NCBI RefSeq assembly: GCF_032362555.1
Contig: NC_083522.1
Coordinates: 7,232,001-7,296,000 of the forward strand
Length of the DNA: 64,000 bases
Origin: Amyelois transitella
Lineage: Eukaryota > Arthropoda > Insecta > Lepidoptera > Pyralidae
Direction: 5' to 3'
Positions 2,626 to 64,000 of the stretch are shown here, piece by piece. Each line of letters begins with the position of its first letter. Within the stretch, counting starts at the first letter, position 1. Both the position numbers and the translations under genes were made by a program. The notes under the pieces were generated by a model. It was not told the origin of the DNA. It was given only the letters and a program-made list of their open reading frames with translations, and ran no database searches.

Positions 2626-33066
<30,441 letters not shown>

Positions 33067-49746: not shown

Positions 49747-52700
49747 ATGGCTATATTCGAAAGCCCATCTCAAACAAAAGTTATTGTTGATGATACCGAA
49801 AAACTGATTTGTGTTGTTGAAAATGCACAAAATATCAACAAACATACTGTAAGTTAAATCAGCATTTACGTTATGATGATACGACCTACATCATTTCTAC
49901 TCATTGCTTACTTGGAACGATTTTAAATCCATGTAACCTTAGAATAATTTGCTTAGTCAAGTATAATCGTATTTAATTACACAGCCTAGTCTGGTGTTAG
50001 TTAGAGATCAACTTCATAGCATAGTACGCATTGTGGTCTCTTCTCTATCCACCTATTATATATTTGTATTGAATTTTATATTACTATTTTATTAAAGTTT
50101 ATTTTACTTTTTAATGACAATGGTTTTAGGAATATATTTTACGGATCCAAAGAGGCCCCAATAAGGAGAACAAGTGGAATGTGTCACGGAGGTACAGAGA
50201 CTTCGCTGCGCTGCATGCCAGCCTACACCAGGCCAACATTGACCTACCTCTCCCACCAAAGAAACTTATTGGGAACATGCAACCATCGTTTATTGCGGAG
50301 AGACAAATTGCATTACAGGTTAGTCCATTTATATTTGTGAATAATTGTATGTCCTCTATAATTAAATGATTATCTCATGTTTATTTAAAAATGAATTTGT
50401 ATGTTGTTGTGATTTAACATAATATTCAATTTGTTGAAACAAGAAGATGAATTATGCCAAAAAAAAGTATATAAACACATTTTTTTTTCACAAATTCTTC
50501 TTACATTCTAGTCTTCTAACAAGTTGGCAAAAGCATAAAAGCCTCCAAATTGGCCATGTTTCTTAATTTGATAAATTCTTAATAAATAATTACTCTTATT
50601 CCAGAATTACATTAATGAGGTGCTGAAACATGATATACTGGCTCTGTCAGTTCAAGTGAGGAGTTTTTTGGATCCCAAGAATTACACTTTATCTATTGCA
50701 GGTAATCATCATCAGCAAATATCTCTGCCTACCAATACAAAGCAAGGCCAAAAGGCCACTCATATTATTGTAATGTGTAATTTGTATTTTTGTTTGCACA
50801 TAGTTCTTGCAATATTAGTAAAATACATTGTATGTTTAACTTCAGAACAAGCACTGCAGACAATATCAATCGCATTGCGAGGTGATGGTCGATATGAACT
50901 TAGAACCCCGCTGCCTGGCATTGGTTGGAGGATACGGAAACATTACTTTTTAGTGAGTTAAAGTTATTAATTTTAATAAAAGACATGAGTGGCAAACTGT
51001 GTAGACCACTGAAGTGATATACCTAGATTTTAGATTCACTTTATTTACACAACAATATTATTTTAATCTGAGAGACCTGTTTTTGCTCTACAAAGATAAC
51101 CTGTCTTTGTTTCCAGACATGGGTGGTAACATTGACATCTGAATGTCATTTTCTTATCAAGTAGGTTACAAGTATATTGCAGATATAAAATTATTAATTT
51201 AGATTTTTCTGTTTTTCATTACCAGTTTCTGAGAGTCCACTAAAAATTTTAAAGGTTTTGTTAAATTAGAATTCTAGGTATTTATATGTGATCTCTCAAC
51301 TTTCCCAAAATTTTGTACTGAAATCACTAACGTTAAACACCATCTGTCAATCATCCCGAAGAAAATGATGCGCTCAGCCAATAGCAGCAGATTGGAGCAT
51401 AAATACAACCGCCGACTTAACATCGTCGGAGCCGCTGTTCCCCAGGCATCCTAGCCTAGCGGAAGATCTTACCTTTGTGGCGGTTGAGCCGAATCATCAC
51501 TCTCACTACAATATAATTGAAATCCATATAATTATTTGAAAATGAAATCGAAAAAAAAGTTGAATGTAATGAATGAACTTGGAATTCTTCTTTTAGGCGA
51601 TGGGCTAGTAACCTGTCACTATTTGAATCTCAATTCCATCATATAACATACATTATACTGAGCGTTGGCTTTTCAGTCTTTTCAAGACTGTTGGCTCTGT
51701 CTACCCTGCAAGGCATTAATACGGGACTATATGTGTGTATGTAATATCTTGCAGCAGTTTCAACCATTCTATCATCCTTAGAACCAGCAGTTTGTACTGT
51801 GTGTTGATATGTCAGTCAATCAGTGTCTTCTTTTATATATTTAGATTTCATTACATACTTTTCAATACTTATCAACAACATTGTTAGCCCTACATCCGTT
51901 ATATTATTAAATCATTTTGTTTTGATAGTGCAATAAATAATATTCCCTTCTCTGTTAAATTTATAAATTCAAACTAATGTTGGTAAATAACTTCGAAAAT
52001 AGTATTTGGCCGAAGTGGGATTTGAACTTGTGCCTTTCTGTATCAACGACCGACGCTCATACAATATTAAATTTACATACATACATATAACCATGTCTAT
52101 ATCCCTTGCAGGGTAGACAAAGCCAACAATTTTGAAAAGACTGATAGGCCACGTTCAGCAGCTAAATTATAGAATTGAGATTTAAATAGTGACAAGTTGC
52201 TAGTCCATCGCCTGTAAGAAAGAAGTTCATAAGCCTATCTCTTAGTCGCCTTTTAAAACATCCATGGGAAAGAGATGGAGTGGTCCTATTATTTTTTCTA
52301 TTGGTGTCGAGAACCGCACGGCACTGCGTTTAATTTATAAGTATGTTTATAGGTAAACGACATTGACAGCAAATCGAGTTGTATTTTGTCCTGGCAGAAC
52401 TACGGGCCGGACAGACATCTTAGCGACAAGGAGCTACAGACAGCGTGCAAGAGCTTACTTAACTTATCTGTAAGTGACTTTTATTTGTTAATTCCTTTTA
52501 CGCTATTCTGAGGTGTTCAGACTATCCTCAGCTAATATGTATTTTGAACCAAAATGTCTTTTTTGTTTCAGCATCCATTCATAGATCCTATATTATCCAT
52601 ACATAACTTAGAATCTGGTGCATACACAGTAAGAAAGGTGCACGAGGGCGGTAGTTTAAGAGATATATTATACGGCACGGACTATACTAAAAGTAACTTA

Positions 52701-55700
52701 TCCAAGTACGGGAATCCAAAGGTGCGGAGGCCGTTCACGCACGGGCAGATCGCGCATTACGGATACCAGATATTGGTCGCATTGAAGTTCTTACACGATA
52801 AGGGGATATATCATGGTAAGTAATTGATATTTTCTTTTGTTTAATTAATTGTAAGTTGTAATTTTAAATATAAACATATACAAATTATTCATATATTGAA
52901 ATTCTCTTCATATGGATCAAAATTATTGAAACTGCTGCAAATATATAAGTACTTACTTGCTAACCAGTTAACATAGAATATGTTTATCCTTTCCCGTGCG
53001 AATTTCACATAAACCTATTTAAGTGTTCCTTTACATCCAAAGATACTTTTTCTGATGTACAGTTTTAGTCGATTACTTAATAACTTCAAATGTAAACTAC
53101 AATGTAAACAAGTAGTGAAAATAACAATATAACTCCATTTTCAGGTCACATCCACCCCGGCAACATAGCAATAGAGAACCAAAGAGTGCTACTAATGGAC
53201 ATTGAGAACAGTTTATTGGGCGGCGCCTGTTTATACCGGCCGAAGCTGTTGCAATGCAGAGCTTCGACGTCTGTGGCCGTGGACACGTACTGCTTCGGTC
53301 TCACATTGTATGAGATGGCCTTCGCAGAACCTTTGGACACGCATTATAGGGATTACTACCCGGAAGGGATATCTGATGATTTAGGTTAGTTTTTCATGTT
53401 ATGTTTTGCTGATAGTCTTCAAAACAGTTTGGTGAAGGGTGCATGTGTTTACTGGCCGAAGTTTTTGCAATACAGATCTTCAACGGTCCAAGCGGTCGAC
53501 AATTAATGGTTTGGTCTCACTTTGTATGAAATGGGCTTTGCAGAACCTTTGGACACGCATTATAAGGACTATTACCCAGAAGGGATATTTAAAGTATAAG
53601 TACCTTTTTAAATCAAATAAGTTTTAGCGCGGGTTTCTCTTCCGTCGGAAGTGCCAGAAAAATTCTATGTTATCCCTAAAGGTTTTTTCTATTTGTATAC
53701 AAAATTTCATTAAAATCGGTTCAGTAATTTATGAGTTTATTCGTTACAGACATTTAAAAATAACAATCTTTTCTCTTTATTATTAGTGTGGTCTAGAGAA
53801 AAGATTTATAAATTTTCAAGAAGTTTTTTCGTTCGTGTATTGTTTTTAATTTCGAGTTCTTCAAAAAGCTGACATATATGACAAACTGAGAATGCAATCT
53901 CGAATATTTTATTATGAAACACAGAATCAAAGGTTAAAAAAATAAAACCTTTTGTTTATTTATTTAGGTATAATTAAATCAATACATTTCCAGAATCAGT
54001 ACTCCGCCTCTGCCTATCCCGAACGGCGTCAAAACACGGCGGGCCGACGCTTACGCACCTACTAGCTCACCCGATGTTTGCGCGTGCGCCGCTCAACGGC
54101 TTGTCGGCCATGCCAGATGACGACCGCGCACATTTGAAGTTTCCCACTGCACTGAAGGAGGAATTGAAGGCAGGAGTCGCGGCTTTTGAAGCTAGGCTGA
54201 AAAGTGAACAGAAATTAGTAAGTTTTTAATACTTTGCTGTAAAATATCACAGGTTGGTCCTTCGAGCCGGACTAATTATGAAAAAAATATTACCTAAATG
54301 GTAGTTGTTAAGAATTATTTGATGTTTTGGAAGATTTGGTTCAAAAATAAAAATATGACTAAAAATTAAAATGTTGTTTTAGGTTAGAAATGCAAGAAGA
54401 GAAGTGAGAATACAAGAGATTTTAGGGTCAGAAGAAGAATTGCGGAAACAGAAACGAAGATCGGTAAGTAACATTTGAACCAAACTTGACGTACGATTTC
54501 CGTCAGAGTAGAGTATGCACTACATCTATTTCAATATCTATATATAAAATTTGATCACGAAATCTCAAAAACTGCTGAGGCAATAACCATGAAATTTGAC
54601 AGGAAGGTTTATTGTAACTTAGAGACGTCCGCTAAGAATGATTTTTGGAAATTTCCGCCGGTCGAGAGATAACGGGATATTTTCAAATACCTACATACAT
54701 ATCCCTTATGAGGGAGGCAAAAGTATTATATAGACTGAAAGGATACATTCAGCTTTTCCAATACCTAAATGTACGTGGTTAATTTGCAGAAGAAACGAGA
54801 CAGTATGTGGAAGTCGACATCGTCTCTAGCCGAGACAGTGAGATCACATAGTGGCAGCACTGCTTCTTCTCCCACGCCGCCTGCGATCTGTGAGTTTAAT
54901 TTTTAACTTCAATTTTTTTAACTAAAATAAGGAGGAGATTCTCAATTTGACCGTAACGTTTTTTTTTAAGTCTGTTTCTTTTTATTATTCCTTAGACACT
55001 TTTTGCATATAAACGAGATATTTTTTTAAAAGTCTCCTTCCTATTGGCAATAGTCCCGGTTACATCTTTCTCTCTTTGGAGATTGGTTACATACCAATAA
55101 TCCACTATGGGTTAGGTTGCAGGGGGCAAAGGTTGCGAAGGTCAAAAAACCTGACTCATCCAATCCAGGATCATGGTCAGATAGGCGAGGATTTAACCGG
55201 GATTAACGCTGGGAGAAAGAAGAAGACGATGTTATTTTAGGATGTCGTTGGCGTGTCAGAGTAGTTTCTGACAGATTTTTGAGCTGTCCACGGGCGTCAA
55301 ACCATTCGACCACAGACTTTGAATTTTAATAGCGTTGCTCTTCAAGTCAGATTATTAATTTATTTATTCAAGTAGGTGCAACAACAATGTTTATCTACAA
55401 CATTCAACGATACATATAAAAAAATCGTTCTTATATACCACCAATAACAGGATACGCAACGTTCACCATAAACAAAAAAAAATATGTTAAAATTTTATCA
55501 AAAATAATAATGTTAATCGTTGATGTGGTTGAGAACAGCTTTCGTTTAACCCTTCGTAAGCTTTAGGCCGTATCCGGGCATGTACTAGGAATGCTTTGTT
55601 CCGGATCCGTCCAAATGCACTCGTCGTAGTTTTTACACAAATATAATATCTAATAACAAGAAATAAGGTGTTTTATTATTTGAAATGTATTTCTAACGAA

Positions 55701-58700
55701 TGAAGCCGTCATAGACAACTGTCAAATATGAATTTCATCCGTTCATTTAGCTAACCAAGTCATTTCAAATTGTGACTTCGTTGTGTTGCAAAGTGACTGA
55801 AGAACGTGTGAGAAAACTCGTCTTTTTTGGCTGTAATTACAAACAGGTATGTAAATGTTTTTATTTCGTTATTATATAGTTACTTTCGAAGCAATTACGT
55901 GTAAAAGTTTATAGATTTAGTAAAAAAAGAAGGATTTTAGCTTTTTCAAAAGTAGATGGAGTGTGTTACATATTTCTTTCGTGTTAGTTTATGCATTATA
56001 TCCAATACCTCTGTAATGGATATAATTGGTTTTAGATAGTAAATTTATTATACTATTGAAATACACTAACTTTTTTACAATAAATACATGGATTTTGTAA
56101 ATATCTTATATTTTTCAAGACTGAGAATCCGTTACACGCACACATACGCACTATGTCCGCCATCTTACTTGTGTCGTACACTGTCTGTGTATTGTATCGC
56201 GACGCTAATATACAGCATGCTTTCAAAAGCCTCTGTGATTTATTCATTGATTGAAACTAAATCTACGAAATTTATTTTATTGGTTTTAGTCAAAATGTCG
56301 TTTGGTTTTGATGACATGATGTCATGATAGTTGGGAGATGGTATACAGGATCTACGCTCCGGTAACTCGTATCGCGCTGTGTTTTAGCTCGTTAGTTTTG
56401 TCTCCGTGAGCACTTTCTGATGAAGTGACATCGAGGGTCTGATGATGCAGTCGGAAGGTGGTATACAGGATCTACGCTCCGGTAACTCGTATCGCGCTGT
56501 GTTTTAGCTCGTCAGTTTTGTCTCAGTGAGCACTTTCTGATGAAGTGACATCGAGGGTCTGATGATGCAGTCGGAAGGTGGTATACAGGATCTATGCTCC
56601 GGTAACTCGTATCGCGCTGTGTTTTAGCTCGTTAGTTTTGTCTCCGTGAGCACTTTCTGATGAAGTGACATCGAGGGTCTGATGATGCAGTCGGAAGGTG
56701 GTATACAGGATCTACGCTCCGGTAACTCGTATCGCGCTGTGTTTTAGCTCGTCAGTTTTGTCTCAGTGAGCACTTTCTGATGAAGTGACATCGAGGGTCT
56801 GATGATGCAGTCGGAAGGTGGTATACAGTATACAGGATCTACGCTCCGGTAACTCGTATCGCGCTGTGTTTTAGCTCGTTAGTTTTGTCTCCGTGAGCAC
56901 TTTCTGATGAAGTGACATCGAGGGTCTGATGATGCAGTCGGAAGGTGGTATACAGTATACAGGATCTATGCTCCGGTAACTCGTATCGCGCTGTGTTTTA
57001 GCTCGTTAGTTTTGTCTCCGTGAGCACTTTCTGATGAAGTGACATCGAGGGTCTGATGATGCAGTCGGAAGGTGGTATACAGGATCTACGCTCCGGTAAC
57101 TCGTATCGCGCTGTGTTTTAGCTCGTTAGTTTTGTCTCCGTGAGCACTTTCTGATGACATCGATGTCTGGTTTGAATACATGCTAATAATTTTATTTTAT
57201 TGACAGATTAAAATGGAACCCCAAACCCCAAGTACTTCCAGAAGCATGTTTGTCGGCTTGGAGGTGACTAGAACTCCTCAGGGATCCCTTATTCGGGGCA
57301 GAGATGTAGTCTTGGAGACATCTGGATCAGGGAGGATTAGAGTATGTTATTTTCCAGTTTTGTTAACTTTCCCTTTTACTTTAAAAACAAAAACTGATTA
57401 TTTCGTATATTTTATTACAGCCTTGGCGGCCCCAAAATTTATCTGTGGAAGGCGAAGCCATAGAGATCGTGGATGAGTTGGTCCATGGCGGCGAAAAAGT
57501 AGCTGCTGTAAGAATGGTTTTCTTTTTTTTGATAACTTTAGTAGATGTTCAACTTTTTTTTAACTACCAAGATAATAATATGTCGAGATGTATACTAACT
57601 TATTGCTCACTTATTGATGTCTATTGTAAGGATTATCGAAACAAAATATTACCTATTATCACAACATGCAATGTTATTTACAAAATAATTATTTTTTAGG
57701 TACCAGAGGAACGTACGAAAGGTCAGCCGCGTAATCTTTTTGGCCGAGAACCTGTAAGTTTCATTTTCATAACACTCTTTGAAAGTATAAATTACTTGCA
57801 TTGAGAAAGGGATTTTTATTTATTGCCGCTCTCATCGTGCACCGGACTATCTGATAGAAATCTAGTCCATCCAGTAACTAAGGTAATGTAACTAAGGGTG
57901 TTTGGTTTGTGCTTCAATAACACAATTCTGCTAAAATTGGCAATGCGGTATGAATGTATTGTAACTTCATTGATATAAAGGTGTTTGGTGTATGCTCAAT
58001 AACGTAATTCAGCGAAATTGGCAATATGGCATGAATATATTGAAAGTTAATTGAATAAAAATGAACAGGAATCTCTATTCCTGTTCATCGTTGGGATACA
58101 CTAATTATTCCTTTTTATAAAAATATTGTGGTTGGCATCTCTAACAATACCCGCTTTTGTTATGTTTGTGTGTATGCTTGCATGTGGTTTAGGGTTTGGT
58201 TTTTTTAATAGGATGAAGACATACTGGATCCTGAGCTGGCTGAAGAATTAGCCATCGACTCTGGAAGTGATGAGGATGCCGAGGAAGAATTGACTCTCGA
58301 TCAGTTACAGCAGATGTTGGAATCAGATGACGATTTTATTGAAGATGAAGTTAGTGAGGAGCCATTGACTTGGTCATCTGATTTTAACGAATTTAGAGGG
58401 GTCAGGGAGGACTTCAACGAAGAAGCTGGTCCTAAAATTGAGGGAACAAGTCCTTTAGGCTTGTTTACTCAAATTTGGGACCAGCCTCTGATGGATTCTA
58501 TTGTCCACGAAACGAATCATTACGCTTGGGAAACAATAACCGGTTTCTTTGAAACCGGAGACTCCATGCCAAGTAAATCTCGCATGAACGACTGGGTGGA
58601 AACTTCGGTTTCCGAACTATATAGGCTTATAGGTGTGATGATATTTATGTCAATATGTGTAAGAAGTAGGTTAGAGGAATATTGGATGACGGGTGTGATG

Positions 58701-61700
58701 GGTATGCCGGAGTTTCGAAAACTGATGTCAAGGGATCATTACGTAATGCTCTTAAAATTTTTGCACTTTACTGATAACAACAACATACATGTACAGGGGC
58801 GTGATAAGAAAATAGCTAAAATAAAACCTATTATAGATTATTTAAATAAAAAATTCCAGTCCATTTACGTGCCTCACAGAGAAGTATCGATAGACGAATC
58901 GTTGCTGCTTTGGAAGGGTCATTTAAGCTGGAAACAATGCATTCGTTCCAAAGCAGCTCGATTCGGTATCAAAAGTTATGAACTCTGTGAGGCCGTAACT
59001 GGATACGTAGTAAATTTAATTTTGTATGCCGGCAAAGGCACGACAACTGCAGAAACGGTTTACGGGTTTACTACATCCACTGCCAAAATAGTCCTTGAGC
59101 TTTTCAAGAACTATTTAGGCAAGGGATATACCCTGTTCATGGACAATTTTTATAATTCTGTTCCTCTGACCCAATTTCTAAAAAAACATAAAACTGACGT
59201 AGTCGGTACTCTGAACCGTCGCCGAAAAGACACGCCCGTAGAAATCCAAAATTTGCAGGATAAAAGGATGGCTAGGGGTAGTGTGGTAAGTAGACACTGT
59301 GGTGATGTATCCGTCATAGCATGGAAAGATGTGAAGCTTGTCACCACTGTATCTACTTACCACAAAACAGATATGGCTCCAGGGCACAGGGCTGGCCAAC
59401 CCTGCTCCAAACCAGTCGTGGTCCATGAATATAATAAATACATGGGAGGCGTCGATCTCAAAGATCAAAAGCTAAGCATGTATTTATTAGAAAGAAAGAG
59501 GGGAATCAAATGGTATATTAAAGTTTTTAGACGTCTTTTAAATATATCTATTTTAAATGCATATATTATATATTGTGCTAACATTGGCCAGCATAAAAAA
59601 ATGACTCACCGCCAATTTCGTTTCAAGCTTGCTGAAGAGCTCTGCTTAGAATTCGGACAAAACGTCTCCTCACGTTCGCGCCAGGTCCCCATCCCCACCT
59701 GTAGCAGGCTGAACAGGGATTTTAATCATTTCCCTGTTCATAATGAGGTGACCGAGGAGCGAACCAAAAAACAAGATAAATTTAAGAGGGGACGTTGTGT
59801 TAGATGCAGGCAAAAATGTAACATCGCGTGCAGTCATTGCACGGTGTATATTTGTGTTGGCCAATGTTGGCTTGAGTATCATACTTTAGAAAATCTATAG
59901 TTTGTAAATTACTTCTGTAGTTACATATATATAAAATATATAATTAAATATTATCTATTTATTTATATTAGTTATATATTTATATAAAATGTGTGATGTA
60001 GTAGTCAACACACCAGACTGCTACTTCCAGGTCTCGGGTTCGATCCCCAGTCAGGTCAAGTTGGTAAATTATCTTTTTCATATTGACTTCTGATCTTGGG
60101 TGTTTATCTATTTATGTATACATTATTTTATTTTTAAATATTAATATTAGGATTATTGTTTAAAAATACTTTTTTCTCTTTGATCCCTTCTTTCTTAGGA
60201 CTGCACTGGTTTGGTCTACGGGTTATAAGATACATAGAATGAATATACAAATAAAATAAAAAAAAAAAAAATTCAAAGCCCTTCAGGCGAGTAGGCGACC
60301 AATACTGTTGAAAAGAGTTTCTTTCGGCGTTTCTTCTCTTGCAGTGGTCGGTTACGAAGCGCTAGTAGTCTTTAGCTTTGAAAGAATTAATAATTTTAAA
60401 TTTGAGTTTTGAATACATATCTATTTAATTTATCTAAATCGATAATTTTTACATGTAATTTGACGTAAAAAAGTGCCTACAAAGGCCTATTTTCTGAATA
60501 AACGTTTGAGTTTGGTTACAGTCGGCTTGAGCTCGATCGAACGCATGCGTGTTTTGAGTCCAAACATGCTTTGTTTAAAATTTAAGTTGACGTCATTTAG
60601 AGACACTGCTGCAGTGCAGTTTGGTGCCTATTCTTCTGTTATCCTATTCTTCACTTGCGCTTCTGAATTTGTGTAAACTTTTTTGCATATGAATATTCTG
60701 CAGACTGTTTAAATAACACCCTTTTAAAACGTTGTTGTTATCAGTAAAGTGAAATGATGGGAATCTAAAATTTCGATTCCTACGCAAAATTTTTTTGTTT
60801 AATTTGAATTCATAATTCATTAAAAATAAGTATTTTTTTTTACAAAACAACCGACTTCAACACTATTCCCTATCTCAAAAATTACTGAACCGATTTTGAT
60901 GAAAGTATTTTTTTTCAATAAGTCTTTATATATTACATAGTTCTTATCATTATAGATTTATTGAAAAAAAAAACTTATCAAAAACAGTTCAGTAATTATT
61001 TTTACAAAATTGTAATTTTATTTTTATTTTTTCATTGGTAAAAATAATTCCTAGTATGTACTATGAATCATTGGTAAAAATAATTACTAGTATGTACTAT
61101 GAATTGAATAGGTTTAGAGTAGTGGAAACCAATAAACATTGTACATTTTTGTATTCCAATAAAAGAAACATTTTAATCAACATTTTATTTTTATTTTTAC
61201 AAGACACTCTTTTCCAAATTACTAACGTGCACAACTAAAAACAAACATCCTGTAGATATGCCCAGATCCGACCTAAAGCAGTTAGACAAACATTGACAGT
61301 GGACGGATACGGCCATCAGCAGTTAGGCGTTAACCACATGCCGCCATTTTGTCCAGATACGGCCATCAGCAGACAAGCAAGGCAAACAAGTCACGCACAC
61401 AGACATACATTTTTCTAGTTTTTGGCTATGGTTTTTCGCTCATTTTCTCTAGGCAAGCTATATATGTCTGATATAAAAACGAAACTACAATTTTTCGTGT
61501 TTGCCACACTGCCCTTACAGTTGAGCAAAGACAAATGTAAGTGAATGAACGAGCCAATTGAAAAAATGATAGTTTTCTAGGTAAGTTTTCAGTTTTTAGT
61601 AGAAATATACTATTTTAAGACATTTAGATACATTTTACTTGTTGTTTTGTGAAGCCAAATACATTATTTACGATTACAATGCCTCAAATAAATCTACATT

Positions 61701-62518
61701 TCAATATTTTCATGGTAATAGAAGTATAAAGTTTGCGTTGTAGAAGTTGCAAAATGGCGAAATCGTGATTCTTACTGGATTATTTGTGAAGACGATTTTA
61801 GAGAATTTTACTTGGGACATAATAACTTTTTGGCACCATTAAATTCCTCAATTATTGGACTTTGTGGAATAGTAAACAAAAACAGAATATATGAAAGATG
61901 TAAATTGCAAAATCAGTAAAATATTTACAATGGATAATTTTTCGGTAAGTTTTGAATTCAGTGACCTAAATATAATAAACGCAAGTGTTTTTTCGCATCA
62001 AAATTTATTGCATATGATTCTTCATTTATATATCTTTAAAAAAAAATAAATTTTTGGGTAGGTCCCAAATAATTATATACAGATATACAACAAAATCTAA
62101 GACACTGCGCGCCCGTCCGCCGCGGCGCTTGAACGCCGCAGACGAGGTGCGCAGTTTGCGTATAGCCGCCGCAGCTGAAGGGTTAAAGAATATAATGAGG
62201 CTATTGTCAAATATGTCCAAATTTCGATTGACGGACTCATTTTTGTTATCACGTGATACGGGATAGCGATAGTTTTTCGCGCGATAATAACGACGTCGCG
62301 CGAGCTTTACTGCAGGAGCGTGGCTTACCAGATTAGTACCTGCTGGTCAGATTATAAAGTGGACTTAATATTACAGCGGCAGAAGCAAGCGGGTCTAGCT
62401 CTATCACGGCCGCGGGCCCCGTCTCGCCGGTGTCGAGCCCCGCGTGCGACTCCCGCGGAGCCCTACTCGACGCCATCTGCTCCTTCGACAAGTCCCGCCT
62501 CGCCAGGGTGCACTCGCG
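49747..62518 (+). CDS. PXK: PX domain-containing pseudokinase PXK (3' end beyond window)
   Basis: A membrane-trafficking protein with a phosphoinositide-binding PX domain and a kinase-like fold; vertebrate PXK acts on endosomal receptor traffic. Exons: 49747-49848, 50130-50318, 50605-50701, 50846-50952, 52353-52469, 52572-52815, 53145-53384, 53994-54217, 54383-54463, 54790-54889, 62377-62518. Phases agree through 547 codons. The PX part has RRYRDFAALHASLH and LPLPPKKLIGN. In the kinase part the catalytic loop reads HGHIHPGN instead of HRD-K-N, and DFG is DIEN, so catalysis is doubtful. Charged KKRDSMWKS follows, then a Ser/Pro-rich tail and a WH2-like LLDAICSFDKSRLARV in exon 11. Intron 10 (7.5 kb) contains the piggyBac gene. 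The last donor (TCGCG|gtgaga) has no partner that I recognise before 64000. Confidence 0.93.
51570..51740 (-). repeat. GTAGACAGAGCC repeat in PXK intron 4
   Basis: AACTTGGAATTCTTCTTTTA, GGCGATGGGCTAGTAACCTG, TTTTCAAGACTGTTGGCTCT, GTCTACCCTGCAAGGC. The rest of intron 4 (50953-52352) contains a reverse SINE head fragment at 51985-52060 (AACTTCGAAAATAGTATTTG) and otherwise no recognisable feature. Confidence 0.8.
52072..52325 (+). repeat. GTAGACAGAGCC repeat abutting PXK exon 5
   Basis: Near full-length forward copy: CATGTCTATATCCCTTGCAG, GGTAGACAAAGCC, GCCACGTTCAGC, AAGAGATGGAGTGGTCCTAT, GAACCGCACGGCAC. Its end is within about 30 bp of the exon 5 acceptor (52352), so it has replaced or forms most of the normal branch-point region. 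The forward and reverse copies in this intron (51570 and 52072) make an inverted pair. Confidence 0.85.
53419..53596 (+). pseudogene. Decayed tandem duplicate of PXK exon 7
   Basis: This stretch matches the 3' two thirds of exon 7 (about 53208-53375) base by base over long runs: CAGAACCTTTGGACACGCAT is identical, and GGCCGAAG(C/T)TGTTGCAAT, TTGTATGA(G/A)ATGG and TACCC(G/A)GAAGGGATAT differ slightly. Deletions around 53490-53510 (the GTCGACAATTAATGG part) and frame changes make it non-coding. It begins 35 bp after the functional exon, and there is no proper donor at its end. Confidence 0.85.
53620..53790 (+). repeat. Relic of a LINE/Helitron 3' region in PXK intron 7
   Basis: Contains AGCGCGGGTTTCTCTTCCGT, AATTTCATTAAAATCGGTTC and AGTAATTTATGAGTTTATTC, phrases shared by lepidopteran LINE and Helitron tails. 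It directly follows the duplicated exon piece. Confidence 0.5.
55081..55235 (+). repeat. SINE fragment in PXK intron 10
   Basis: Matches the 3' half of the SINE at 9324: GGTTAGGTTGCAGGGGGCAA, CCTGACTCATCCAATCCAGG, ATCATGGTCAG, GAGGATTTAACCGGGATTAA, then the AGAAAGAAGAAGA tail. Confidence 0.7.
55800..55846 (+). other. Possible non-coding first exon of the piggyBac gene
   Basis: TGTAATTACAAACAG|gtatgt is a good donor after a GC-richer stretch, and the coding exon has a good acceptor at 57206 (TTTTATTTTATTGACAG). If joined, the 120-bp satellite lies in the first intron. The exon's 5' end is unknown. Confidence 0.4.
56341..57157 (+). repeat. 120-127 bp tandem repeat, about 7 copies
   Basis: Copies start with GTATACAGGATCTACGCTCC at 56341, 56461, 56581 and 56701; longer 127-bp units with the 7-bp insertion GTATACAGTATACAGG start at 56821 and 56948; the last, truncated unit starts at 57075. 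Within each unit are GTAACTCGTATCGCGCTGTG, TTTTAGCTCGTTAGTTTTGT and TGAAGTGACATCGAGGGTCT. Units are nearly identical; copies with GTTAGT...TCTCC alternate with copies having GTCAGT...TCTCA, which points to duplication of a dimer. It ends 50 bp before the first coding exon of the piggyBac gene. Confidence 0.95.
57213..59900 (+). CDS. piggyBac-type transposase gene with introns (652 aa)
   Basis: Coding exons 57213-57341, 57421-57507, 57700-57753 and 58212-59900, all phase 0 with canonical splice sites (aga|gtatgt, gct|gtaaga, cct|gtaagt). N-terminal residues 1-115 are acidic (DPELAEELAIDSGSDEDAEE). The transposase core follows (TQIWDQPLMDSIVHETNHYA, LYRLIGVMIFMSICVRSRLE). The piggyBac DDD triad is complete: VSIDESLLLW (D318), LFMDNFYNS (D401) and GGVDLKDQKLSMY (D505), with spacing close to the moth piggyBac protein. 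The C-terminus carries a cysteine cluster (CVRCRQKCNIACSHC, then CVGQCWLEYH) like the end-binding domain of piggyBac. The frame is entirely intact. Introns are unusual for an insect piggyBac, so it is either a domesticated gene or an intron-bearing active element. Confidence 0.9.
57898..58060. repeat. 83-bp tandem duplication in the last piggyBac-gene intron
   Basis: Two diverged copies: GTGTTTGGTTTGTGCTTCAA, TAACACAATTCTGCTAAAAT, TGGCAATGCGGTATGAATGT and, from 57981, GTGTTTGGTGTATGCTCAAT, AACGTAATTCAGCGAAATTG, GCAATATGGCATGAATATAT. Older than the 120-bp satellite, judging by divergence. Confidence 0.8.
58061..58088. repeat. Perfect 28-bp palindrome
   Basis: ATGAACAGGAAT, loop CTCT, ATTCCTGTTCAT: 12-bp perfect arms directly after the 83-bp duplication and about 125 bp before the acceptor of the main exon. 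Confidence 0.9.
59988..60240 (+). repeat. tRNA-derived SINE just after the piggyBac gene
   Basis: The head AGTAGTCAACACACCAGACT and the B-box GGTCTCGGGTTCGATCCCCA precede CTGATCTTGGGTGTTTATCT. It is the same family as bases 1-95. It begins about 90 bp after the stop at 59900, so the transposase 3' UTR may read into it. Confidence 0.75.
60280..60385 (+). repeat. Fragment of an interspersed repeat
   Basis: CGACCAATACTGTTGAAAAG, AGTTTCTTTCGGCGTTTCTT and CGGTTACGAAGCGCTAGTAG form a phrase I know from many moth genomes. It is non-coding here. Confidence 0.55.
60386..62103. other. PXK intron 10 / piggyBac right flank
   Basis: AT-rich, no exon. A tandem duplication of 36 bp lies at 61033-61104 (CATTGGTAAAAATAATTCCT and CATTGGTAAAAATAATTACT). 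ACGGCCATCAGCAG occurs twice, at about 61309 and 61359. About 60850-60900 is a LINE-tail relic (AAAATTACTGAACCGATTTT). Confidence 0.5.
62104..62155. repeat. GC-rich hairpin near the candidate right end
   Basis: ACTGCGCGCCCGTCCGCCGC, GGCG, loop CTTGAA, then CGCCGCAGACGAGGTGCGCAGT: arms of about 22 bp with some mismatches. It lies 28 bp inside the GAAGGGTTAA at 62177-62186 and is far more GC-rich than its surroundings. Confidence 0.75.
62377..62518 (+). CDS. PXK: PXK exon 11 with WH2-like motif
   Basis: Acceptor ACTTAATATTACAG after a phase-1 donor at 54889; it continues as SAEASGSSSITAAG, then LLDAICSFDKSRLARVHS. Vertebrate PXK also has a Ser/Pro-rich tail followed by a WH2 motif with ICSF-like sequence. 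The exon is GC-rich against AT-rich flanks, which supports it as coding. The donor is TCGCG|gtgaga. Confidence 0.85.
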
Positions 62519-63055
62519 GTGAGAACCCGCCACTTTCATTGTGTGAATTTTGACGATGAAAGTGAGAAAGTTTTCATAAATACAAAAGCGAAATAAGTTC
62601 ACTCTCCCATATAAGATAGATCAATATGTTTTTATGGAAACCTTGAGCAGGTTCATCATCCAAACGTGCTATTAAAATTTCCGTAACCAATGTAAATTCA
62701 CCATGTATACACGATCTGGTGGTCTATTCACGGACGAGGAATGTTTTATCTGTCTTCGATCTTTAGGTACTGATATGAAAGTGAACAATCTTGATACGTA
62801 TTTTTCTTGAAATATACATTTCTAAAATAATTTAATTTATTATGCGATCTGTTATATTATTTTGATTAGATAAAACATTGCCTTTTCAACGTTAGTGAAT
62901 GGGAGCTGGCGTTGACAAGGGCTATATTTAAAAAAGACTATTTATATGACGTGAAACGGGAAAGCGATAGTTTTTCGCGAGCCGTGCTACGAAGTGATGT
63001 ATCTGATGCGCCCAAACGTTGATAAGGCGCATGTCTATTTTCGTACTTTAACAAC
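62519..63055. other. PXK intron 11, no exon seen
   Basis: CGGGATAGCGATAGTTTTTC (about 62259, just upstream of exon 11) and CGGGAAAGCGATAGTTTTTC (about 62957) are the two copies of a short direct repeat around the exon. Nothing coding was recognised here. Confidence 0.4.
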
Positions 63056-63294
63056 TCTGCCCTGGTATAACTAAAATGCCGTTATCTGCCAAATCCTTGT
63101 TTTTAGTAAAACGTCAAAAACTGCGGTAAAAATTTAAACTGATGCCATTCATCAATGAGAACGCCTGTTTATGACTTAAAGGTACCAAAAAGTCGTATAT
63201 ACAGATCGAAAGAAATTTTTTTTTCTTATTTTACTGGTAAAAAAGGTGTAAATCCTGATGTCAGATAACGGCATTTTAGTTATACCACGGCAGA
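63056..63294. mobile_element. Short MITE with 35-bp inverted ends
   Basis: TCTGCCCTGGTATAACTAAA, ATGCCGTTATCTG at 63056-63088 is inverted at 63262-63294 (CAGATAACGGCATTTTAGTT, ATACCACGGCAGA), with one mismatch over 33 bp. The interior is 173 bp of AT-rich non-coding DNA. No clear target duplication. It lies in PXK intron 11 or downstream. Confidence 0.85.
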
Positions 63295-64000
63295 ACTTTC
63301 TCTCTTTGTCTCACTCTGAAAGTAACCAAAAAGATAGAGACAAGAACACATATGCCTTATCAACGTACAGCTGCCTGCAGAGAAACATGACCCCCTTATT
63401 ATACAAACAAACAAAGAAATGGCGGGAGGTGGTTAAGGTTTTTGCAGTCGACCAAGTTAGATATATATTTTATCTTCTCTATATCTATATGATTTCCGTT
63501 ATAAAAGAGAAAGGAGTAGAAGTAGTAGAGGAGGAAATAAAGACATACACTCGTTAATAAATTTACTTTTTGCGTACTTAACAATAAAAGACCAATCCAG
63601 TGTAAACGTACAATAACTAAGATAAAATTAATGACAAATTAAGAAGACAACATGGCTTTTATATGTCGTAAATTAATGTCGATTTAATTTTTTAAATTAT
63701 CTTAACAACACCAGTGGCGTTCTGCAACGCGGTTACATCTTAAGAGTATTAAATTTAAAATAAATGAGCAACATTGAATTTTTAGATAGGTTAGATCCGT
63801 ACAAATATTTTAGAAAGCGATTTGGCCAAGGATTCTAAACAAATTTTATATATAATAAGTTGTTGAATTCTGAAAACCAATTTTCAACTTCTCAAGGATC
63901 AAGATTTTAAGATTCCGATAAAATACAACTGTTGCATTTTTAACGCTAAACTACATTTGAATGCATGATTAATCAGAAATTTGTTTTCATTTTTTGTTAT
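63295..64000. other. Right end of window, no gene seen
   Basis: AT-rich. Short open frames at 63.3-63.6 kb have no domain or codon bias. The terminal PXK exon was not recognised here. Confidence 0.4.

Follow-up and report, generated by a model that had tools for sequence, protein, structure and literature searches.

In the 64,000-nucleotide (nt) stretch of the Amyelois transitella genome analyzed here (contig NC_083522.1, positions 7,232,001 to 7,296,000; hereafter the window, numbered from its first letter), we found a complete piggyBac-type transposon of 6,641 bp, both TTAA sites counted, of which a 652-codon transposase gene forms only the inner part (Table 1). This element very probably represents a young and apparently autonomous DNA transposon with at least 31 copies. 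It has the DDE_Tnp_1_7 domain, the DDD core, TTAA target sites, and CCC/GGG tips that define the piggyBac superfamily, and is a variant inside this superfamily rather than a new kind. Its host site is a 7,487-nt phase-1 intron of a gene named here PXK, on the same strand.

The genome searched was the window's own (327 Mb, 33 contigs), and all copy counts are lower bounds. A search with the Pfam profile PF13843 (DDE_Tnp_1_7) gave at least 116 scored matches from 535 candidates; at least 31 of these, window copy included, share a score of 299.3 bits and an open frame of 562 amino acids (aa), and they are spread over 18 contigs. A 1,094-bp query covering exons 1–3, the introns, and the start of exon 4 was found at no fewer than 31 places, 30 of them full-length (with the top score in 29 and a slightly lower one in the other). 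The 31st place (L017) matches query positions 801-1094 only: a deletion of 56800-58006, with short filler, has removed exons 1–3, introns 1–2, and part of intron 3. A query with the terminal 200 bp at the 3′ end, including the TTAA, likewise hit 31 or more places (28 at the top score). This 3′ query found no separate place with the 3′ end alone, and thus no short non-autonomous relative was seen with it. Within the window, no second copy was found apart from one 31-bp match.

Long stretches were fetched for 10 of the 30 other copies, and the count of 5′ ends rests on these 10. All of them start at the same 5′ TTAA (TTAACCCTTCG), with BLAST similarity beginning within 8 bases of 55546, and nine end at GAAGGGTTAA within the fetched stretch, at most 6 bases from 62186. 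The tenth (L040) has an insertion of ~4.4 kb after about 61107, which pushes its 3′ end outwards. The TTAA target-site duplication is present at both ends in the window and in nine of the 10 long copies, the 3′ end of the tenth lying beyond the fetched stretch, and the flanks are different in each of the 10. The terminal inverted repeats (CCCTTC/GAAGGG) are exact over 6 bp only; 6 of 2,000 shuffles likewise had the gene flanked by TTAA-CCY tips that match over 6 positions. Sub-terminal motifs near CMGATMCGRMC are found towards the element ends in inverted orientation.

The copies are almost free of differences. Over 57158-61064, 24 of the 26 fetched copies were compared base by base with the window; 23 are identical and one carries a single substitution in intron 3, which amounts to one change in 93,768 bp. 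Left out of this comparison were L017, because of its deletion, and L039, which is without about 450 bp (60087-60535). The mutation rate of butterflies is near 3e-9 per site and generation, and at this rate the single change corresponds to an age of the order of thousands of generations. Since the introns are as identical as the exons, the likeness reflects recency, and at least 31 near-identical copies speak for very recent transposition and not for a host-domesticated gene.

Transcription of the gene would begin inside the element and probably start in, or run through, a 120-bp array located directly upstream of exon 1; the three coding introns, perhaps together with one intron in the 5′ untranslated region (UTR), would be spliced out. 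The resulting 652-aa transposase would bind the ends and act by cut and paste, excising the element at TTAA and inserting it at a new site. In such a process it is DNA that moves, and hence the introns are carried along. The copy in PXK should usually be removed together with the host intron during PXK splicing.

Transposase gene and related families

Joined, the four coding exons give 652 codons with no stop, and the three introns are all GT..AG and phase 0. A rule-based exon search of 57160-58211 returned exactly the three upstream exons, and none of 300 dinucleotide shuffles gave any chain; the donor and acceptor rules were chosen after the sites had been seen. The in-frame codon usage of exons 1–3 was reached by one of 5,000 base permutations, with exons 2 and 3 singly being too short for this test to separate the read frame from all frames of the other strand. 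The G+C content is 50-53% in exons 1–3, 23-33% in the introns, and 41% in exon 4. Exons 1–3 are more than chance. All introns lie upstream of the catalytic domain, such that the transposase domain is uninterrupted.

Exon 4 alone matched PF13843 over its full 349 positions (E 1.4e-88), and its PDB matches include piggyBat (9c0f, E 9.2e-50) and Trichoplusia ni piggyBac (6x67, E 1.2e-33). In alignments with both structures, D318, D401, and D505, together with a fourth acidic residue, D508, coincide with their SIDE, MDN, and GGVDxxD stretches; the roles of D268, D346, D447, and D450 in piggyBac have been described (PMC2533014). The last 34 residues hold seven cysteines and two histidines and were aligned to piggyBat by sequence only; a single-sequence AlphaFold model (mean predicted local distance difference test score, pLDDT, of 32.8) gave no reliable fold for this cysteine-rich domain. 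The length of 652 aa is inside the range of 500-725 aa given for intact beetle piggyBacs (PMC12732532).

The initial annotation had placed an intact transposase gene at 57213..59900, nested in PXK on the same strand, with four coding exons, clean splice sites, and an unbroken 652-aa frame. The gene is real, as borne out by the joined reading and the shuffle and permutation tests, but the true feature is the whole element. The three catalytic aspartates and the C-terminal cysteine cluster that it listed are both supported by the comparisons above, with D508 to be added. Its acidic N-terminal extension does not hold: the 90 residues encoded by exons 1–3 have a net charge of -1, and the acidic stretch begins in exon 4 (net -26 over residues 91-150).

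A tree was built for 15 piggyBac families of this genome, namely 14 representatives plus the window element; it covers only families with a fetched locus and includes L012, whose frame is truncated by a stop. In this tree, the L044 family is sister to that of the window element (support 100/100; 41% identity over 572 aligned positions). The L044 family has a 658-aa frame and at least four genome places of equal score. It likewise predicts 5′ introns, with two upstream of the long frame and one open in-frame chain to the end; both of these predicted introns are phase 2, whereas the three of the window element are phase 0. Predicted 5′ introns thus seem to be usual in this branch, although those of the two families need not be the same ones. 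By eye, the long frame also seems to start behind an acceptor-like site in four other piggyBac families (L013, L014, L003, and L002), and introns may be common among the piggyBacs of this genome.

Further groups of equal score were seen in other piggyBac families (590 aa in six copies, 598 aa in 12, and 631 aa in 11), which suggests several piggyBac bursts in the recent past of this genome. One contig of 12.4 Mb (C32) holds 16 of the 85 other PF13843 matches and none of the 31 of the window element's family, for which about one was expected by length.

Upstream array, other parts, and host gene

The number of donor-bearing units in the upstream array is seven in seven of 11 copies (window included), eight in two, nine in one, and 11 in one. 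This variation among otherwise near-identical copies indicates that the array changes far faster than the rest of the element, and argues against one sequence having been repeated by assembly error.

Table 1. Coordinates of the element, its parts, and neighboring host exons in the window.
Feature	Position	Strand	Basis
PXK exon, ends phase 0	54383..54463	+	sequence
PXK exon directly upstream of element, ends phase 1	54790..54889	+	in-frame join to 62377
Complete piggyBac-type transposon	55546..62186	+	BLAST of 54500-63500 vs 10 long copies; 3′ 200 bp at 31 places
5′ TTAA target duplication and CCCTTC tip, TTAACCCTTC	55546..55555	+	single occurrence in window; 10/10 long copies
Sub-terminal motif, 5′ end	55560..55581	-	inverted match to 61258-61279 (22 nt, 86%); motif scan
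120-bp minisatellite, 6.7 units, directly upstream of exon 1; seven GTGAGC donor-like sites	56339..57157	+	Tandem Repeats Finder
Possible 5′-UTR intron, GTGAGC ... TGCTAATAA ... TTGACAG, ends 6 nt before ATG	57140..57206	+	inferred from sequence
Coding exon 1, 43 aa	57213..57341	+	codon-usage and exon-chain tests
Intron 1, 79 nt, phase 0	57342..57420	+	sequence
Coding exon 2, 29 aa	57421..57507	+	codon-usage and exon-chain tests
Intron 2, 192 nt, phase 0	57508..57699	+	sequence
Coding exon 3, 18 aa	57700..57753	+	codon-usage and exon-chain tests
Intron 3, 458 nt, phase 0; 81-bp tandem duplication inside (57893-58059)	57754..58211	+	sequence
Coding exon 4, 562 aa and stop; acidic stretch, DDD core, cysteine cluster	58212..59900	+	Pfam, PDB matches
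Three sub-terminal motif copies (about 61260, 61303, 61353), orientation opposite to 5′ motif	61258..61371	+	motif scan
3′ tip GAAGGG and TTAA target duplication, GAAGGGTTAA	62177..62186	+	single occurrence in window; 3′ 200 bp at 31 places
PXK exon directly downstream of element, weak WH2-like match	62377..62519	+	Pfam WH2 E 0.067, below cut-off

Several smaller structures were observed in the element. Within the transposase exon, palindromes at 58421-58489, 59072-59130, and 59282-59364 have folding z values of -7.3, -5.6, and -4.4, reached by none of 200 shuffles each, and such strong palindromic folding is unusual for coding DNA. The palindrome at 58421-58489 also has a sub-threshold Rfam match to mir-54 on the minus strand (E 0.077). 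A 24-nt stretch of the same exon (58761-58784, coding for HFTDNNN) has an inverted copy with 23 of 24 positions matching at 60731-60754, in the 3′ non-coding part. That part contains a long hairpin at 60870-61010 (z -8.0), perhaps a nested small inverted-repeat element. The region of about 59990-60270 has, by eye, the look of a tRNA-derived short interspersed element, with a B-box-like word and an A-rich tail, and received no ARAGORN or Rfam call. Rfam gave four matches over 55400-62400, all far under the gathering scores, and ARAGORN found no tRNA in the window. Outside the element, Pfam RVT_1 matches mark LINE-like reverse-transcriptase frames at 22265-24070 (-) and 7259-8362 (+).

The exons on both sides of the element join in frame, in agreement with the nesting that had been annotated. 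The name PXK for the host gene is tentative: it is based on the make-up of PXK together with a PX domain at 50130-50336 (Pfam, E 9.3e-12), a kinase match at 52548-52820 that is weak and misses the curated cut-off (E 0.00026), and the weak WH2-like match downstream of the element. Pfam gave no matches for the PXK stretches 53153-53380 and 53993-54217.

Alternative readings

The initial annotation had left two options, namely a recently active element with introns and a co-opted gene. The first is favored by the copies, which have the same ends and introns and, in the 10 long ones, different flanks. A domesticated piggyBac gene serving the host from the PXK intron might be suspected from the intact frame and catalytic residues and from the introns, as in domesticated PGBD5 (PMC3902484). 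However, the sequence is found at many different places rather than as a single copy, the transposon ends are kept, and the identity is equal over introns and coding exons. These observations make host co-option most improbable: for the whole family it is refuted by the number of copies, and one copy could still be entering host use. Many copies without introns would have marked the apparent exons as a chance artefact of a single copy, and none of the 31 places has the exons joined without introns, one of them being the deletion copy.

Another reading that would involve the host is a PXK-transposase fusion made by splicing of the PXK transcript into the element, for which CSB-PGBD3 of primates is a published model (PMC2268245). 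The shared strand, the intronic location, and the acceptor-like sites of the element would allow it. Against it, a transcript spliced from 54889 (phase 1) to any of the element's four acceptors (57207, 57421, 57700, and 58212) would run into a stop immediately or no more than 18 codons later, the frame being kept only if exon 54790-54889 is skipped (from 54463, phase 0), and the insertion looks too young for a conserved fusion. We consider such a fusion very unlikely. A smaller change to the gene model would be a shorter transposase of about 528 aa, starting from the first ATG inside exon 4, in which case exons 1–3 would be chance or untranslated. The presence of the whole Pfam domain in exon 4 alone and an N-terminal extension without a proven homologue are in line with this, but the codon-usage and exon-chain tests, the single open frame across all three joins, and the in-frame 5′ exons likewise predicted in the L044 family leave it only a small probability. 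As for the extent of the element, a 3′ end at the TTAA of 61330-61333, with the remainder being host DNA or another insert, was considered since the 30 bases inside it resemble the 5′ end better than those of 62186 do (1/1000 vs 194/1000 shuffles). Copies elsewhere run on to 62186 and then differ; this end was thus refuted and dropped, its remaining probability being negligible.

Several points weigh against a young and autonomous transposon of near-perfect identity. Over 57158-62186, six of the 10 long copies equal the window, but L033, L034, L039, and L040 differ, and L037 shows a slight length difference within the first 778 bp. The identical tip of 6 bp is at the bottom of the range of 6-46 bp given for beetle piggyBacs (PMC12732532), and the best-defined sub-terminal motifs are set back from the 3′ end by ~0.8 kb rather than adjoining it. 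The first 90 residues have no significant similarity to the N-terminus of the L044 family, with 566 of 2,000 shuffles being as good. Finally, we infer transcription, splicing, and transposition by the encoded enzyme from the sequence and its copies.

The reading as a young transposon may be extended to a family that is transposing now in living populations, with the array and up to four introns acting as a control device. Repeat number would then set the amount of transposase, and splicing would confine the full protein to certain tissues. Intron retention in the Drosophila P element confines its full protein in this manner. We regard this joint extension as unlikely.

Significance and comparison with known systems

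A 6.6-kb element with four coding exons and at least 31 virtually identical copies represents a natural experiment soon after a burst. Its spread indicates that introns do not stop a piggyBac from multiplying, and its copies provide a ready set of insertion sites for population work. The element also provides a candidate transposase, and splicing may be a means of controlling its expression. Furthermore, it cautions against taking a transposase gene for domesticated because it is intact, bears introns, and lies in a host intron.

Pattern searches for relatives in sequence collections gave four stretches in viral_contigs and 26 in genome_contigs, none of which was confirmed; the phage and plasmid collections gave no match, and two exact DNA patterns had zero hits each in viral_contigs. 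Because these collections hold viral, bacterial, archaeal, phage, and plasmid DNA, such misses say little on horizontal transfer between insects. In the literature, as judged by titles and the openings of abstracts, no insect piggyBac with several coding introns was found. Intact piggyBacs surveyed in beetles and bees are reported at about 2.1-3.5 kb (PMC12732532; PMC10140906), and those of beetles are described as having a single open frame (PMC12732532).

Among known elements, the T. ni piggyBac (IFP2) shares the DDD core and cysteine cluster in alignment and, according to PMC10140906, TTAA sites, short tips, and sub-terminal inverted repeats. However, it is given there as 2,472 bp with one 594-aa frame, in contrast to 6,641 bp and four coding exons. 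The best match among solved structures is piggyBat, over query residues 98-561, with a similar last stretch that ends in YHTL. Pokey of Daphnia is described as a mobile, multi-copy piggyBac with one intron of 68-84 bp, splicing supported by reverse transcription PCR, and a 668-aa product (PMC3849761). It also has repeats upstream of the transposase gene and TTAA sites in that account, compared here by description rather than by sequence. As described there, Pokey differs in having one intron rather than three predicted coding introns, repeats of 200 bp derived from the ribosomal DNA spacer rather than an array of 120 bp, and N at the fourth acidic site where the window element has D508.

Two domesticated and conserved genes share single traits with the window element. 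PGBD5 is likewise an intron-bearing piggyBac gene, described as having its introns within the transposase domain (PMC3902484), and CSB-PGBD3 is likewise a piggyBac in a host intron (PMC2268245). The window element, by contrast, occurs in many copies and has its introns upstream of the domain, and its fusion to the nearest PXK exon would be out of frame.

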